This document shows, one piece after another, positions 2,072 through 32,096 of a stretch of DNA of 64,000 nucleotides; the stretch's first letter is position 1; each line of letters begins with the position of its first letter. The position numbers and the translations under genes are program-made. The notes beneath the pieces were generated by a model, which searched no databases, was not told the DNA's origin, and saw only the letters and a list, made by a program, of their open reading frames with translations. Origin of the DNA: an uncultured Prolixibacteraceae bacterium (GTDB lineage: Bacteria; Bacteroidota; Bacteroidia; Bacteroidales; Prolixibacteraceae); NCBI GenBank assembly GCA_913063265.1, contig CAJXZG010000002.1, positions 1-64,000 on the forward strand, in the 5' to 3' direction.

Positions 2072-2752
2072 TCAATAATCCCCTTCTGCCTTACTCCCGC
2101 TTAATACAGCCTCTGTTGAGCCAACTCCAAGGCGATCAGCACCCTGTTCCAGAAATGCCACGGCATCTTTCCAGGTTCTTATTCCTCCGGAGGGTTTTAC
2201 CAGCATTCTGTCACCAACAGTTTTTATCATTATCTCAATATTCTCAGGTGTCGCTTTTCCGGGACCAAAACCTGTTGATGTTTTAACAAAATCAGCACCA
2301 CCTTCGTACGACAATTCACATGCTTTTGCAATTTGCTCTGGTGTTAAAAATCCACTTTCCTGTATTACTTTTACTAAAACTCCATGTTGATGCGCAACAT
2401 CAACCACAGCTTTGATATCTGCGATAACGTACTCATAATCGCCTGATAAGAATTTACTGATATTCATTACCATATCAATCTCATCAGTACCATCGTTAAT
2501 AGCCTGTCTGGCCTGGAATTCTTTTACAGGAATGGAATCGGTGCCATGAGGAAAACTCAGAACACAAGATACTTTTACATTACTATCTTTCAAAAGTTCT
2601 TTTGCCAATTTAATATCGCAGGGTTTTACACACATGCTAAATACTTCATTTTCGATACACATTTTAGCATTGGCATGTAAATCCAACTCTGTTTGATCTG
2701 GTTTAAGCACTGCATGATCTATGGTTTGAGCTACTTGTCTTTTTGTGTACAT
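2072..2752 (-). CDS. deoC: Deoxyribose-phosphate aldolase
   Basis: DeoC cleaves 2-deoxyribose 5-phosphate to glyceraldehyde 3-phosphate and acetaldehyde in the catabolism of deoxynucleosides. The 226-residue protein is of normal length. The Schiff-base lysine lies in FVKTSTGFGPGKATPE, the second active-site lysine in MLVKPSGGIRTW, and the catalytic Asp in DEIDMVMNI. The start ATG is 6 bases from the end of the upstream DUF2007 gene, and the gene closes a tight run with xseA and xseB, which suggests one transcript. An intrinsic terminator follows at 2019-2043. No other nucleoside catabolic gene lies nearby, so the association with exonuclease VII may reflect general handling of DNA breakdown products. 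Confidence 0.95.
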   Translation of the reverse strand: MYTKRQVAQTIDHAVLKPDQTELDLHANAKMCIENEVFSMCVKPCDIKLAKELLKDSNVKVSCVLSFPHGTDSIPVKEFQARQAINDGTDEIDMVMNISKFLSGDYEYVIADIKAVVDVAHQHGVLVKVIQESGFLTPEQIAKACELSYEGGADFVKTSTGFGPGKATPENIEIMIKTVGDRMLVKPSGGIRTWKDAVAFLEQGADRLGVGSTEAVLSGSKAEGDY

Positions 2753-2758
2753 TTTATA

Positions 2759-2983
2759 TTATTCAATTATTGCCTTTATAATTTTAATTGCTTCCTCCGT
2801 ATCCGATTCTTTTACATACAAATCGATAGCCGATGGAATTCCTCCACCAAAACCTGCTTCCAATCCCTGACGAAATCCGTCTTTTGTAATGGAAACAATT
2901 CCTTTCTGATCAAGTTCTGATTTTATTCTTTCGATAATAACACTTCCACCCGTGTAAACCAAAACCAGTCTGTCTTTGCTCAT
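2759..2983 (-). CDS. DUF2007-type small signal-transducing-like protein
   Basis: This 74-residue soluble protein has the pattern of the DUF2007 family: an N-terminal strand LVLVYTGGSVIIERIKSEL, a Gly-rich centre (GLEAGFGGGIPSAIDLYV) and a C-terminal helix EEAIKIIKAIIE, suggesting a compact ferredoxin-like alpha/beta fold. DUF2007 members are described as putative signal-transducing proteins, but no biochemical role is settled. It lies 11 bases after xseB and 6 bases before deoC, so it is almost certainly cotranscribed with them. Confidence 0.7.
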   Translation of the reverse strand: MSKDRLVLVYTGGSVIIERIKSELDQKGIVSITKDGFRQGLEAGFGGGIPSAIDLYVKESDTEEAIKIIKAIIE

Positions 2984-2994
2984 AACTATTATGT

Positions 2995-3198
2995 TTATTC
3001 TTCCATTTCTTTTAAAATCTGTTCAACCTGTTCGTTGGTTTTTAATAATTTATCCTTACAGGTTTTTAATAAAACAGAAACACGTTTTACTTTTTCAGCC
3101 AACTCGTCCACGTCCAGTTCTTCATTTTCAATCTTTTCAAGAATTTCTTCAACCTCCGCCATTGCATCGGCATAACTGATGTTTCTTTTATTTGCCAT
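2995..3198 (-). CDS. xseB: Exodeoxyribonuclease VII small subunit
   Basis: XseB wraps several copies around the long helix of XseA to form the single-strand-specific exonuclease VII used in mismatch repair and clearance of damaged DNA. The 67-residue protein is highly charged and helical, with the family pattern SYADAMAEVEEILEKIENEE followed by DVDELAEKVKRV. Its ATG overlaps the end of xseA by 11 bases, an arrangement that favours translational coupling of the two subunits. Confidence 0.93.
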   Translation of the reverse strand: MANKRNISYADAMAEVEEILEKIENEELDVDELAEKVKRVSVLLKTCKDKLLKTNEQVEQILKEMEE

Positions 3199-4633
3199 GA
3201 TTTTCTTTTTTAACGATTTTACTTTTTACTTTACCATCAGCGAAACGGGTTTCAATTTCTTCATCCAGTTCAATTTGTTTTGATGATTTTATAATTTCCC
3301 CATTTTTCAAAGTTAATGTATATCCTCTTTGTAGAACATTTTCAGGATTGATTAATCTTGCTGTATTTTCAAAAAAATGAATTCTATCTTTCTCTTTTAA
3401 CAGAAATTTCTTCGATTGGCCAGACAGGATATCTGTAAAATGATTTATTACTCCGCGTTGTTTTAATATCGATTCATTTATCAAATGATGAAGAGATTCT
3501 TTTTTTTGTGCCAGCCTTGTTTTAATAGCGCTTATTAACATCTTTGATTTTGAATATAATTCATGATGTAATTCGCTTAACTCGTGTTCTTTCTGATAGG
3601 AAAATTGTTTTACGACTCTTTGTACTTCATTACCTTTTTTCGATAATTGAATCTGATTTTTTATTATAAAACCCTCAACTACCCTGCTTAATCCAATAGC
3701 TGCATTTTCCAATTCAGAATTGTGAGAATCGAGCATATTTACTGCAAAGTCTACAATTTCGTTCTCCATTTCCAACAATCTGCTGTAATAAGTTTCAACC
3801 CCTTTTATCAGAAATTCAGCAACTGCAGTTGGAGTTTTTAAACGCGAATGAGCAACCAAATCTATAATTGTGTCATCTTTTTCATGGCCAATTCCTGTAA
3901 TTACCGGTAAGGGAAACTGCGTAATATTAAATGCCAGTTCATAATCATCGAAACTGCTTAAATCGGCAGTTGCCCCTCCCCCGCGAATAATAACCACTGC
4001 ATCAAAAAAATCTTCGAATTGAAAGATTCTTTCCAAAGCAAAGATTATTGAAGAAGGAGCTTCGACACCCTGCATGGTAGCCTGAAACAATTTAGTATAA
4101 AATCTGAATCCAAATTCATTATTCTCTAATTGATCCATGAAATCCTGGTAACCGGCAGCCGTAGCAGAAGAAATTACTGCTATTTTTTGAGGAACAAGAG
4201 GAAGTCCAAGTTCCTTATTCATTTCAAAAACACCCTCATTTTGCAAACGATTGATTATTTCTTTTCGTTGCATGGCCATATCTCCGACCGTGTAAACCGG
4301 ATCGATATCCCTGATATTGAGACTAAGACCAAAAGCCGAATGATATTCAACAGTAACCTGAACAAGAATTTTAATACCCTGAGTAAACAATTGTCCTGTT
4401 GAGGTTTCGAAATAAGGTTTTAACATTCGGTAAGTGTAAGACCATATTGTAGCCCGGGCTCTTGCAATAATTTCATTCTCCTGTTTCTCAACCAACTCAA
4501 GATAACAATGTCCGCTGAAATTTTCCTTTAATTCGCTTATTTCAGCAACCATCCATACCGATGAAGGCAACGATTCTTTAATTGCCTTAGCAATTTGCTC
4601 ATTAAGTTCAGAAAGGGTGATTTTTTGTTCCAT
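3188..4633 (-). CDS. xseA: Exodeoxyribonuclease VII large subunit
   Basis: XseA is the catalytic subunit of exonuclease VII, which degrades single-stranded DNA from both ends. The 481-residue protein starts with an OB-fold (SVWMVAEISELKENFSGHCYLEL), then the catalytic domain with IAVISSATAAGYQDF, the VIIRGGGATADLSSFDDYELA block and GIGHEKDDTIIDLVAHSRLKTP split over the active site, then a long coiled coil that binds XseB, and a C-terminal segment ENVLQRGYTLT. All family hallmarks are present. It starts 5 bases after the S8 protease stop and overlaps xseB, so the run from the protease to deoC appears to be one transcription unit. Confidence 0.95.
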   Translation of the reverse strand: MEQKITLSELNEQIAKAIKESLPSSVWMVAEISELKENFSGHCYLELVEKQENEIIARARATIWSYTYRMLKPYFETSTGQLFTQGIKILVQVTVEYHSAFGLSLNIRDIDPVYTVGDMAMQRKEIINRLQNEGVFEMNKELGLPLVPQKIAVISSATAAGYQDFMDQLENNEFGFRFYTKLFQATMQGVEAPSSIIFALERIFQFEDFFDAVVIIRGGGATADLSSFDDYELAFNITQFPLPVITGIGHEKDDTIIDLVAHSRLKTPTAVAEFLIKGVETYYSRLLEMENEIVDFAVNMLDSHNSELENAAIGLSRVVEGFIIKNQIQLSKKGNEVQRVVKQFSYQKEHELSELHHELYSKSKMLISAIKTRLAQKKESLHHLINESILKQRGVINHFTDILSGQSKKFLLKEKDRIHFFENTARLINPENVLQRGYTLTLKNGEIIKSSKQIELDEEIETRFADGKVKSKIVKKENHGK

Positions 4634-28374: not shown

Positions 28375-29010
28375 TTACTGCCCAAAATCAAGATTGAATT
28401 TTTGCCTTAGTAGTTTCAAACTTGGATTTTTTTTAAGTAACTCGTCATATTTTTCAGCATCGGTGTAGATTATTCTTCCTTTTACAGTCGCTGTAATCTT
28501 TGTAGATAATTGTATCCCCGAATTTTTAAGCTCTCTCCGTAACCATGAAACCAATTCGGTTTTAACCTGATTAATTAAATCCTCCTGAACCGTATTTTCT
28601 ATTTCCAGAACAAACTGATAATCCTCTGCAAACGCCGGGAGTCTTGACAATGTGGATTGTAAATTTGGTTTATCGTTAAGCGTTGCCACAAATTCTTTCC
28701 ATTTTTTCTCAAGCTGTTCCGGAGTAAATTTTTCAGAACCCTCATCTTTGGTGTAAATCTCGTGCTGTTCTTTTGCCGACAACTCTTTTTCTTCAAGTTT
28801 ACCTTCCAAAGCATCTTTTATTGATGGTGTTCCAATCTCACTTAATTTTCTGCGGGCAATTCTTTTTTTAGGTGATTTTTCATCTGCTGATTTTGGTCTT
28901 GTCGGTATCTGAACCTTTTTCCGTTGTGGAGTATTTAATTTTTCTTCAGGAATATTCAGTCCGGAAAAAATCGGCTCAAGAATTTCGGCTGCTACCGTAG
29001 GGTCAACTAT
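28375..29010 (-). CDS. dnaX: DnaX tau-specific C-terminal region, read after a frame change
   Basis: This frame lies one base out of phase with the end of the DnaX gamma frame and is open without a stop from the A10 run (29010) to 28375, about 211 residues. It starts IVDPTVAAEILEP, has a Pro/Lys-rich linker (RPKSADEKSPKKRIARRK) and ends in a helical region containing YQFVLEIENTVQEDLINQ and WLRRELKNSGIQLSTKI, as in tau tails that bind polymerase and helicase. Read in sequence with the gamma part it gives a DnaX of about 578 residues, the usual length of gamma/tau. An internal TTG at 28809 is a much weaker start. A homopolymer sequencing error would also give this pattern. Confidence 0.75.
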   Translation of the reverse strand: MVDPTVAAEILEPIFSGLNIPEEKLNTPQRKKVQIPTRPKSADEKSPKKRIARRKLSEIGTPSIKDALEGKLEEKELSAKEQHEIYTKDEGSEKFTPEQLEKKWKEFVATLNDKPNLQSTLSRLPAFAEDYQFVLEIENTVQEDLINQVKTELVSWLRRELKNSGIQLSTKITATVKGRIIYTDAEKYDELLKKNPSLKLLRQKFNLDFGQ

Positions 29011-29021
29011 TTTTTTTTTAA
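29007..29021 (-). promoter_or_regulatory. Candidate dnaX frameshift/transcriptional-slippage site (TT, ten A, TAG)
   Basis: On the minus strand the gamma frame ends LTLKKK with TTA AAA AAA AAA TAG. A shift of one base back on the ten A (or an extra A in the transcript) bypasses the stop and enters the open tau frame at ATA GTT GAC. A shift the other way meets TGA two codons on. I see no strong downstream stem-loop, which favours transcriptional slippage of the Thermus kind over ribosomal shifting. Confidence 0.65.
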
Positions 29022-30110
29022 GGTGAGCTGAGCTATTCTTATCAGCGACAATTCAATTAAAAGTCTTTTATTCATGCTGGCTTTATATTGCATGTCGCAT
29101 TCATTACTAATTTGTAAAGCCTGCAAAAGAAAACCGCTTTCGGCAGATTGCGCCTGCTGTCGGTACCTTTCTTTAGTTTCACCACCCACCTCGAGCAACT
29201 GGGTTGTTTCAGCATTTTTACATACCAGCAAATCACGTAAGTGATTACTTAATCCGGTAATAAAATGATGTCCGTCAAAACCATGATTGAGAATCTCGTT
29301 AAAAGTCATTAAAACATCGGGGACTTCATTTTTCTGAAATTGATCAACTAACTTAAAATAGTAATCGTAATCCAGCACATTCAGGTTAGAAATTACATCC
29401 TGATAGGTAATTTTTTTACCCGAAAAACTAACTACCTGATCAAAAATAGAAAGTGCATCCCGCATTGCACCATCAGCTTTCTGAGCAATTACATTCAGAC
29501 CTTCAATTTCTGCATCCACACTTTCACGTTGTGCAACATATTCAAGGTGCTTAGAGATATCGGAAACTCCAATTCTGTTAAAATCAAAAATCTGACATCG
29601 GGAGAGAATCGTAGGAATAATCTTATGTTTTTCGGTTGTTGCCAAAATAAATATTGCATGATTTGGCGGTTCTTCCAGGGTTTTCAAAAAAGCATTAAAT
29701 GCCTGGGAAGATAACATGTGTACCTCATCGATAATATATACACTGTATTTGCCCATTTGTGGCGGGATACGAACTTGATCTGTAAGATTTCTTATATCAT
29801 CAACCGAATTGTTTGATGCCGCATCCAACTCGTGAATATTAAAAGACCGGTTTGTATTAAATGCTTTACACGAATCACACTCGTTACAGGCTTCTGTTTC
29901 GGCAGATAAATTGGTACAGTTTATTGTTTTGGCAAAAATACGTGCACAGGTTGTTTTACCAACACCTCTTGGGCCACAAAAAAGGTAAGCATGAGCAAGT
30001 TGCCCTCCTTTAATTGCATTTTTTAAAGTATTGGTGATCGACGCCTGAGCCACGACAGTTTGAAAAGTGTCGGGTCTGTATTTTCTGGCCGAGACAACAA
30101 AATTTTCCAT
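29007..30110 (-). CDS. dnaX: DNA polymerase III subunit gamma (DnaX ATPase part)
   Basis: DnaX drives the clamp loader that places the sliding clamp on primed DNA. The 367 residues cover the AAA+ part: Walker A in CGPRGVGKTTCARIF (residues 46-53), a zinc motif with Cys65, Cys75, Cys78 and Cys81, Walker B/sensor in IIDEVHMLSSQAFNAFLKTLEE, and the SRC arginine-finger block TILSRCQIFDF. The collar domain follows and the frame stops at LTLKKK. The tail that makes tau is present in a shifted frame (28375-29010). The gene is divergent from the glutathione peroxidase gene. Confidence 0.95.
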   Translation of the reverse strand: MENFVVSARKYRPDTFQTVVAQASITNTLKNAIKGGQLAHAYLFCGPRGVGKTTCARIFAKTINCTNLSAETEACNECDSCKAFNTNRSFNIHELDAASNNSVDDIRNLTDQVRIPPQMGKYSVYIIDEVHMLSSQAFNAFLKTLEEPPNHAIFILATTEKHKIIPTILSRCQIFDFNRIGVSDISKHLEYVAQRESVDAEIEGLNVIAQKADGAMRDALSIFDQVVSFSGKKITYQDVISNLNVLDYDYYFKLVDQFQKNEVPDVLMTFNEILNHGFDGHHFITGLSNHLRDLLVCKNAETTQLLEVGGETKERYRQQAQSAESGFLLQALQISNECDMQYKASMNKRLLIELSLIRIAQLTLKKK

Positions 30111-30794: not shown

Positions 30795-32096
30795 TTAAGT
30801 CAATGCTTTTTTATAAGCCTGCAAAACTCTTTCGCGGGCAAATTTATGGTCAACAATCGGGGTGATATATTTAACAGTTCCATATTCAGGCACCCACTTT
30901 AAAACATATTTTAAGTCCTTATCAAATTTTTTCATTTGAGTTTCCGGATTAAAAACTCTAAAGTATGGTGCAGCATCGCATCCGCTTCCTGCCGCCCATT
31001 GCCAGTTTCCATTATTTGATGCCAGTTCAAAATCAAGCAGTTTTTCAGCAAAATAAGCTTCACCCCAACGCCAATCAATCAAAAGATGTTTAATCAAAAA
31101 ACTAGCCGTAACCATTCTAACACGGTTGTGCATAAAACCTGTAGCATTTAATTCCCTCATTCCGGCATCTACTAGAGGGTAACCGGTTTCTCCCTTGCAC
31201 CAAAGTTCGAACTCTCTTTCATTGTTACGCCATTGGATAAAATCATATTTGGGTTTGAAAGCTTTTTCAACAACATGAGGAAAATGCCATAAAATATCAG
31301 TAAAAAAGTTTCGCCAGATAAGTTCATTTAAAAATGTTTCTGAATGTGCTAATGCTTTTTTAGTTACCTCTCTTATACTAACCGTTCCAAACCGCAAATA
31401 AATACCAAGTTTTGATGTAGCATTTAATGCAGGCAAATCCCTCCGGGTACCATAATTCTGCAGCAACTCTTCGGAAATATTAAATTCAGGAATTTTTATA
31501 TTGCTTTTATTAAATCCAATTTTTTCCAGGCTTAAAACTTCACAGGTTTTCGTTTTTAAAAAGTGGTCAAAGTATTTGTTTGTTTCGAAACCGTATAGTT
31601 TTTCATTTTGTATTTTCAGCTTCCACTTTTTGCTGTATGGCGTAAAAACAGTATAAGCCGTACCGTCATCTTTTATCACTTCATTATGTTCGAAAATTAA
31701 TTGGTCTTTGAACAAATTAAATTCAATATCATTTGATTTTAATAATTCATCAATTTCTTTATCTCTTTGAATTGTATATGGTTCGTAATCCCTATTGGCA
31801 AAAACCTGTTGAATATCAAATTCATTTTTAAGCATTTTAAAAACCTCTTTGGGTGTACCATGTTCAACCCTTAATGAACTTTTATTTTTTTGGATTTGAG
31901 AATTCAGTTCAACAAGTATTGAATGAATAAAAGTTACCCTGGCATCATCTTTCGATGTCAGTTTTTCCAGAATATTTATGTCGAAAATAAACAGGGGCAG
32001 AACCGGAAAATCTGATTTTAACGCTTGAAAAAGTCCTGCATTGTCTTCAAGTCTTAAATCACGTCTAAACCAAAATATATTTACTTTTTTTTTCAT
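30795..32096 (-). CDS. phr: Deoxyribodipyrimidine photolyase
   Basis: Photolyase repairs cyclobutane pyrimidine dimers using blue light, FADH- and an antenna cofactor. The 433-residue protein begins with FWFRRDLRLEDNAGLF (antenna domain), and the FAD-binding half has LIWRNFFTDILWHFP, GETGYPLVDAGMRELNATG, HNRVRMVTASFL and the NGNWQWAAGSGCDAAPYFR signature split around the active site. All CPD class I marks are present. Its ATG overlaps the stop of the GOLPH3-like gene (TAATG), showing translational coupling. Confidence 0.94.
   Translation of the reverse strand: MKKKVNIFWFRRDLRLEDNAGLFQALKSDFPVLPLFIFDINILEKLTSKDDARVTFIHSILVELNSQIQKNKSSLRVEHGTPKEVFKMLKNEFDIQQVFANRDYEPYTIQRDKEIDELLKSNDIEFNLFKDQLIFEHNEVIKDDGTAYTVFTPYSKKWKLKIQNEKLYGFETNKYFDHFLKTKTCEVLSLEKIGFNKSNIKIPEFNISEELLQNYGTRRDLPALNATSKLGIYLRFGTVSIREVTKKALAHSETFLNELIWRNFFTDILWHFPHVVEKAFKPKYDFIQWRNNEREFELWCKGETGYPLVDAGMRELNATGFMHNRVRMVTASFLIKHLLIDWRWGEAYFAEKLLDFELASNNGNWQWAAGSGCDAAPYFRVFNPETQMKKFDKDLKYVLKWVPEYGTVKYITPIVDHKFARERVLQAYKKALT

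Follow-up and report, generated by a model that had tools for sequence, protein, structure and literature searches.

The dnaX gene of an uncultured Prolixibacteraceae bacterium very probably gives rise to both gamma and tau from one locus through programmed transcriptional slippage, judging from its sequence and those of its relatives. The gene lies in the window, by which we mean the whole 64,000-nucleotide stretch analyzed here, located on contig 2 of a 5.49-Mb genome assembled into 190 contigs. In the proposed mechanism, RNA polymerase would slip on a tract of ten A's (A10), releasing mRNAs with fewer or more A's. Messages with ten A's, or with lengths differing from this by a multiple of three, would lead into a TAG and yield gamma, while messages one base longer (A11, also A8 or A14) would join the downstream tail and yield tau; the remaining frame would reach a TGA two codons on, yielding gamma again. 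What we observe is the anatomy of the gene, the conservation of the run among relatives, constraint both on its length and on stop codons in the two frames that do not encode tau, and repeated switching of the directly encoded product.

Anatomy of the dnaX locus

The gamma reading frame of the window dnaX ends in TTA AAA AAA AAA TAG, with exactly ten A's, and the tail frame starts as ATA GTT GAC CCT and remains open for 211 codons up to a TAA at 28375-28377 (Table 1). The sequence-only reading had described this arrangement, namely an A10 run with a frame-0 stop at LTLKKK, an open frame of 211 residues one base back, a TGA reached after two codons by the opposite shift, and a joined product of about 578 residues, normal for tau. 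Each of these is borne out, the last by the sum of 367 and 211 residues and by the fit of both parts to PRK14971, the NCBIfam gamma/tau model. As the third frame meets TGA so soon, both non-tau frames end in gamma. Within the family, the seven bases following the run read TAGCTGA in 54 of 88 loci and TAGTTGA in 10 of 88.

Table 1. Features of the dnaX locus, with window position, strand and basis or remark
Gamma subunit, dnaX frame 0, 367 aa	29007..30110	minus	ORF call; ends LTLKKK then TAG
A10 slippage run (putative)	29010..29019	minus	A9-A13 (mode A10) at the same boundary in 226/262 usable dnaX loci
Tau-specific tail, -1 frame, 211 aa + TAA	28375..29010	minus	Linker, then folded C-terminal domain
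TAG, gamma terminator in the DNA-encoded frame, directly 3' of the run	29007..29009	minus	Sequence
TGA in the third frame	29003..29005	minus	Sequence; near stops in both non-tau frames enriched across relatives

Residues 1-365 of the window gamma match TIGR02397 with 442 bits and PRK14971 with 732 bits, and the gamma frame carries the Pfam domains DNA_pol3_delta2, DNAX_ATPase_lid and DNA_pol3_gamma3. The tail matches PRK14971 at positions 428-612 of 614 (E 2.4e-24), scoring 86 bits on its own against a whole-protein cut-off of 685, a shortfall expected for a part. The two frames thus cover positions 1-365 and 428-612 of a single gamma/tau model, indicating that together they encode one ordinary tau. 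The tail is moreover homologous to tails fused in frame in relatives that encode tau directly. The best named dnaX match to the window comes from a Sunxiuqinia MAG (79% identical; L039).

The predicted structure of the tail has a mean pLDDT of 78, rising to about 94 over residues 91-170. A Foldseek comparison with solved structures returned no match at E ≤0.001, the E. coli polymerase-complex chains 5fku_E and 5fkv_E being weak matches (E 0.78 and 0.94). A second structure comparison gave moderate Z scores with chains of a ribosome factor, DnaA domain I and DciA, the best match having a Z of 8.6 and an rmsd of 2.3 A over 77 aligned residues; we take these chains to share a KH-like fold. We draw no claim from these model-based matches as to a structural family for the tail. 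A profile search of solved structures with the tail gave a single chance-level match (E 0.081), and its only Pfam hit, to Trehalase (E 0.11), falls under the cut-off and is rejected.

A long A run at the gamma/tau boundary of relatives

The comparison comprises 270 dnaX loci, 262 of them usable after eight were set aside. Within the genus, 36 of 37 genomes matched, of which two have a continuous gene, one is cut by a contig end and 33 are short by open-frame length; within the family, 131 of 140 genomes matched, the sequence was read for 90 of those 131, and 88 were resolved. A further 80 named loci are the best 80 among the window protein's matches, of which there are at least 594, and this set therefore leans to near relatives. 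A phylum sample was drawn evenly, and from the matches listed it contributes all 72 order and class loci together with 28 phylum-level loci hand-picked for spread over families. The named and other sets may share species, which counts thinned to 78 loci are meant to address.

Among the loci set aside, two have contigs that end soon after the run (L036 with A10, L073 with A9), three run off their contigs (L124, L081, L267), and in L055, from a public MAG, dnaX is cut by adapter-like sequence at the contig end, which we presume to be a library adapter. The last two, L095 and L117, have short ORFs that lack any long A run, and both speak against a simple picture. In L117, from a Bacteroidales MAG (match 1690-2775), an in-frame TAG follows residue 366 in the absence of an A run, and past it the same frame is open into a tau-like tail, which could reflect read-through of the stop, an altered code or an error. 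In L095 (match 2501-3577), the dnaX ORF ends at 383 residues with no long A run and with the tail in another frame, reflecting either another recoding site or an error.

At least nine A's occupy the gamma/tau boundary in 226 of the 262 usable loci, with ten A's in 184, eleven in 20, nine in 19, twelve in two and thirteen in one. Conservation of the run in close relatives, a check that the sequence-only reading had proposed, is complete, with 88 of 88 genus and family loci carrying it; the order and class loci follow with 68/72, the named loci with 61/75 and the phylum-level loci with 9/27. Anywhere in the searched stretch, at least nine A's are found in 228 of all 270 loci, while the longest run there is eight in none and seven in five.

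Runs of this length are rare elsewhere. Outside the boundary, the coding sequence of the 262 genes (462,774 bases) contains six homopolymers of at least nine bases (five of A, one of C), and both strands of the 5.49-Mb genome together hold 21 distinct runs of at least ten A's (23 partly overlapping matches), 14 of which lie outside any ORF of at least 100 codons. This rarity suggests that the A10 of dnaX is more than chance. The run also persists in genes of high GC content: exactly ten A's are present in 14 of the 18 run-bearing genes above 50% GC, in which AAA accounts for 47% of the lysine codons elsewhere, and one locus (L084) retains the run while using AAA at 0 of its 27 other lysine codons. 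This pattern marks the run as conserved at the nucleotide level.

Besides dnaX, six runs of at least ten in the window's own genome overlap ORFs of at least 100 codons (L292, L287, L296, L291, L298, L302). The first three comprise an A10 in a nucleotidyltransferase-like ORF (FRKKKQ), a second A10 close to where a desaturase-like ORF starts and a T10 in a flippase-like ORF, all named by eye; in the other three, the run falls within a few codons of where the open frame begins and may precede the true start. Within the window itself, an A9 at 32085-32093 on the minus strand directly follows the ATG of a photolyase-like ORF (30795-32096; MKKKV..., by eye) and is a slippage-prone tract at that start codon.

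The run is absent from 36 of the 262 loci, made up of 18/235 in the genus, family, class and named sets and 18/27 at the phylum level, which implies that a slippage route to gamma is not universal. Run-free loci include L045, L054, L065, L179 and L180, the last two being both of the same-order loci in the phylum sample, and all three named Bacteroidaceae loci lack the run. On the tree, run and no-run states change 14 times. Counting from residue 362, 7 of the 36 run-free loci meet a stop within six codons in each of the other two frames, two of the three Bacteroidaceae loci (L045, L054) among them. L054 also carries a G7 near the boundary, together with a near -1 stop.

Reading frame, near stops and competing mechanisms

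Across the 226 run-bearing genes, the tau frame is frame 0 in 89, -1 in 133 and +1 in four, such that the unslipped product would be gamma in 137 genes (gamma-standard) and tau in 89 (tau-standard). The run starts in all three codon phases. Within the window's own family, the 88 resolved loci have tau in -1 in 82, in +1 in two and in frame 0 in four. Mapped onto a tree of the gamma part built with FastTree, the directly encoded product switches at least 22 times; this falls to 13 changes with the 184 A10 rows alone, to 12 without 11 lone leaves and to 11 with both restrictions, counts that rest on one tree method and that miscalled bases could inflate. Relatives in opposite states may both carry A10, for example L199 and L207, the difference sitting in the flanks. 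On this sequence evidence, genes retain the run no matter which frame encodes tau, and the frame itself is not conserved.

We lean slightly towards a joint reading of these patterns, in which the A10 length is selected across Bacteroidota and the frame is not, and in which the directly encoded product would have drifted between gamma and tau at least about 11 times with both proteins made throughout. Because slippage by RNA polymerase would be efficient enough to fill all three frames, single-base insertions and deletions beside the tract would be close to neutral. According to a review, a single-base change can swap the roles of both products when efficiency is near 50% (PMC5009743). If the joint reading is true, the gamma:tau ratio would be set by tract length, roughly independently of the frame in the DNA, and a frame that drifts because transcription randomizes it would be an unusual and testable case of a weakly selected reading frame.

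Stops in the non-tau frames bear on the machine that slips. Both non-tau frames are closed within six codons in 88% of the 226 genes, compared with 13% further down the same genes and with 35% expected under synonymous recoding; in the window's own family alone the contrast is small (98% vs 64% under recoding). After thinning by tree distance, 65 of 78 loci have both stops against 17.7 expected. In the frame that a -1 ribosomal shift could not reach, 36 of 45 tau-standard genes (16.8 expected) and 29 of 32 gamma-standard genes (17.5 expected) meet a near stop. The thinned tests give p values of 4e-14 and 5e-8, assuming an independence that thinning can only approximate. Near stops even in a frame beyond -1 ribosomal reach favor slippage by RNA polymerase over ribosomal frameshifting, and the preference of the sequence-only reading for slippage thus finds support in the comparative evidence of run length and both-frame stops. 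In four of the 226 genes (L032, L105, L152, L202), tau would be reached by slippage and not by a -1 ribosomal shift, although the +1 position of tau in these genes, as well as some of the frame changes, could reflect homopolymer miscalls. We infer that RNA polymerase is the slipping machine, and likewise its efficiency and the production and use of both proteins.

The strongest competitor, itself improbable, is programmed -1 ribosomal frameshifting on A_AAA_AAA ahead of the TAG, with tau translated from a homogeneous A10 mRNA. The heptamer is present, and since A10 contains it in every phase the shift is physically possible; it also agrees with tau lying in -1 in 133 of the 137 gamma-standard genes. 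Seven A's would suffice for this route, yet at least nine are found in 228 of 270 loci and none has eight as its longest run, and both the near stops in the frame beyond its reach and the four genes with tau in +1 would be left unexplained. In E. coli, moreover, A_AAA_AAA ranks well below A_AAA_AAG according to a review (PMC5009743), and this E. coli heptamer is absent at the window site, where a T follows the run.

Upstream signals divide by lineage. None of the 88 own-family loci has a Shine-Dalgarno-like 5-mer (GGAGG, AGGAG or GAGGT) in the 18 nt before the run. Outside the family (n=138), these 5-mers occur in 11% of loci vs 2% at control positions, and GGAG or GAGG within 18 nt in 49% vs 6%, and a ribosomal route may contribute in the loci that carry them. 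By eye, the upstream GGAG/GAGG often stands in a GATGGAG context in Flavobacteriaceae. Shorter runs also suit a ribosomal route: L050 and L230 carry an A7 near the boundary along with a near -1 stop, and Chlorobium dnaX genes are described with eight and seven A's, for which a ribosomal shift would do (PMC3711429). Section 21 of the review also mentions unpublished work on Chlorobium in which the signals resemble those of E. coli (PMC5009743).

RNA structure discriminates less. The 45 nt following the run fold at -4.2 kcal/mol in the window compared with -19.1 in E. coli (L279), on a measure whose shuffle z-scores discriminate poorly. Across loci, the post-run stretch shows a little more structure than a control site does (mean z -0.52 vs -0.13; z < -2 in 14% vs 6%). 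As the genuine stem-loop of E. coli dnaX itself scores a z of only about -1.2 by the same shuffle method, absence of structure is weak evidence. E. coli reporters built on another gene are described with frameshifting of 10% at A7, 40% at A9 and 63% at A11 (PMC3711429), a length dependence compatible with either the transcriptional or the ribosomal level.

Less probable again is a second translational route, in which ribosomes slide on consecutive AAA codons and fill all frames without a programmed heptamer. Such sliding, reported for E. coli ribosomes on poly(A) (PMC4363877), would fill three frames and hence also account for stops in both. In the in vitro experiments described there with E. 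coli components, however, three-lysine inserts of A9 or A10 give little truncated product and A11 much (PMC4363877), whereas the length kept in dnaX is mostly A10, with 19 further loci at A9.

A sequencing or assembly error in the homopolymer, or a broken gene, is conceivable for a genome in 190 contigs, homopolymers being error-prone, but is very improbable: the gene breaks at the run in 84 of the 88 loci resolved within the genus and family, A10 is also found in the single-contig genomes G003, G033, G034 and G036, and the tail frame stays open and matches PRK14971. The shared break and the intact tail rule out assembly error or a pseudogene as a general explanation. The sequence-only reading had named two observations that would count against slippage. 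An uninterrupted dnaX in close relatives proves to be the exception (4/88); the four continuous family loci (L029, L037, L155, L159) have eleven A's instead of ten, while five others in the family (L127, L156, L158, L171, L178) have eleven and are split nonetheless because their flanks differ. A miscalled run that in truth holds eleven A's is excluded as a general explanation by the single-contig A10 genomes. Finally, production of the tail as a separate protein by reinitiation after the TAG, for which the proximity of the open tail to the gamma stop might speak, is rejected as equally improbable on account of a missing conserved start (the tau frame has its first ATG, GTG or TTG at a median codon of 47, and within 10 codons in 9 of the 133 genes with tau in -1) and of the 89 relatives in which the tail is fused in frame.

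Comparison with known systems

In the evenly drawn order and class sample, 68 of 72 loci carry the run, suggesting a likely slippage site in most clamp-loader genes of the class, where the two-ORF form is easily misread as a truncated or frameshifted gene. The natural series from A9 to A13, in varied frames and at varied GC content, offers a handle on why gamma is made, with run-free lineages available for comparison. Our literature search returned no report of the run across Bacteroidota, which is weak evidence since subscription papers and the supplement of the 2013 study described below were thinly covered.

The window dnaX belongs to the two-ORF poly-A dnaX type described in 2013 and probably works like the dnaX of Thermus. 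Antonov et al. presented two-ORF dnaX as a new structural type (PMC3711429, section 23), with a gamma ORF that ends at poly-A and a tau that would need -1 recoding, a layout shared by the window gene. Their cluster holds 17 genes from 12 genera, with a poly-A of seven to ten A's at the transition in 12 of the 17 and ten A's in 9 of the 17; transcriptional realignment was proposed by analogy with Thermus, and the tested constructs, in the sections of the paper drawn on here, belonged to other clusters (PMC3711429). Chloroherpeton and Chlorobium are named in those sections, and the A10 species may already include Bacteroidota. Here, by comparison, the run is followed through both two-ORF and single-ORF dnaX genes, with tests of its length, of frame changes and of stops in both frames. 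What seems new relative to the 2013 description is how far the run extends across Bacteroidota and that the frame drifts, along with the presence of the run in single-ORF genes, the distribution of its lengths, the recurrence of reversals and the both-frame statistics.

E. coli dnaX (A_AAA_AAG, L279) shares with the window the principle of one gene with two products and a common N-terminal part. The frame roles are reversed, the window lacks the AAG heptamer, and its family lacks the Shine-Dalgarno-like 5-mer. Shigella flexneri mxiE resembles the window in that its longer product needs slippage; it differs in slipping on U's and in being another gene with another purpose (PMC1088944).

A further parallel is Thermus thermophilus dnaX, for which mixed-length RNA is reported and gamma and tau are described as arising from slipped and unslipped mRNAs (PMC1088944, PMC5009743). 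Both genes have a poly-A of at least nine at the gamma/tau boundary and near stops in both non-tau frames. Thermus has A9 and encodes tau directly, whereas the window has A10, encodes gamma directly and would need a slip for tau. The Thermus trait of tau in one uninterrupted ORF, absent from the window, is found in 89 of the 226 run-bearing loci.
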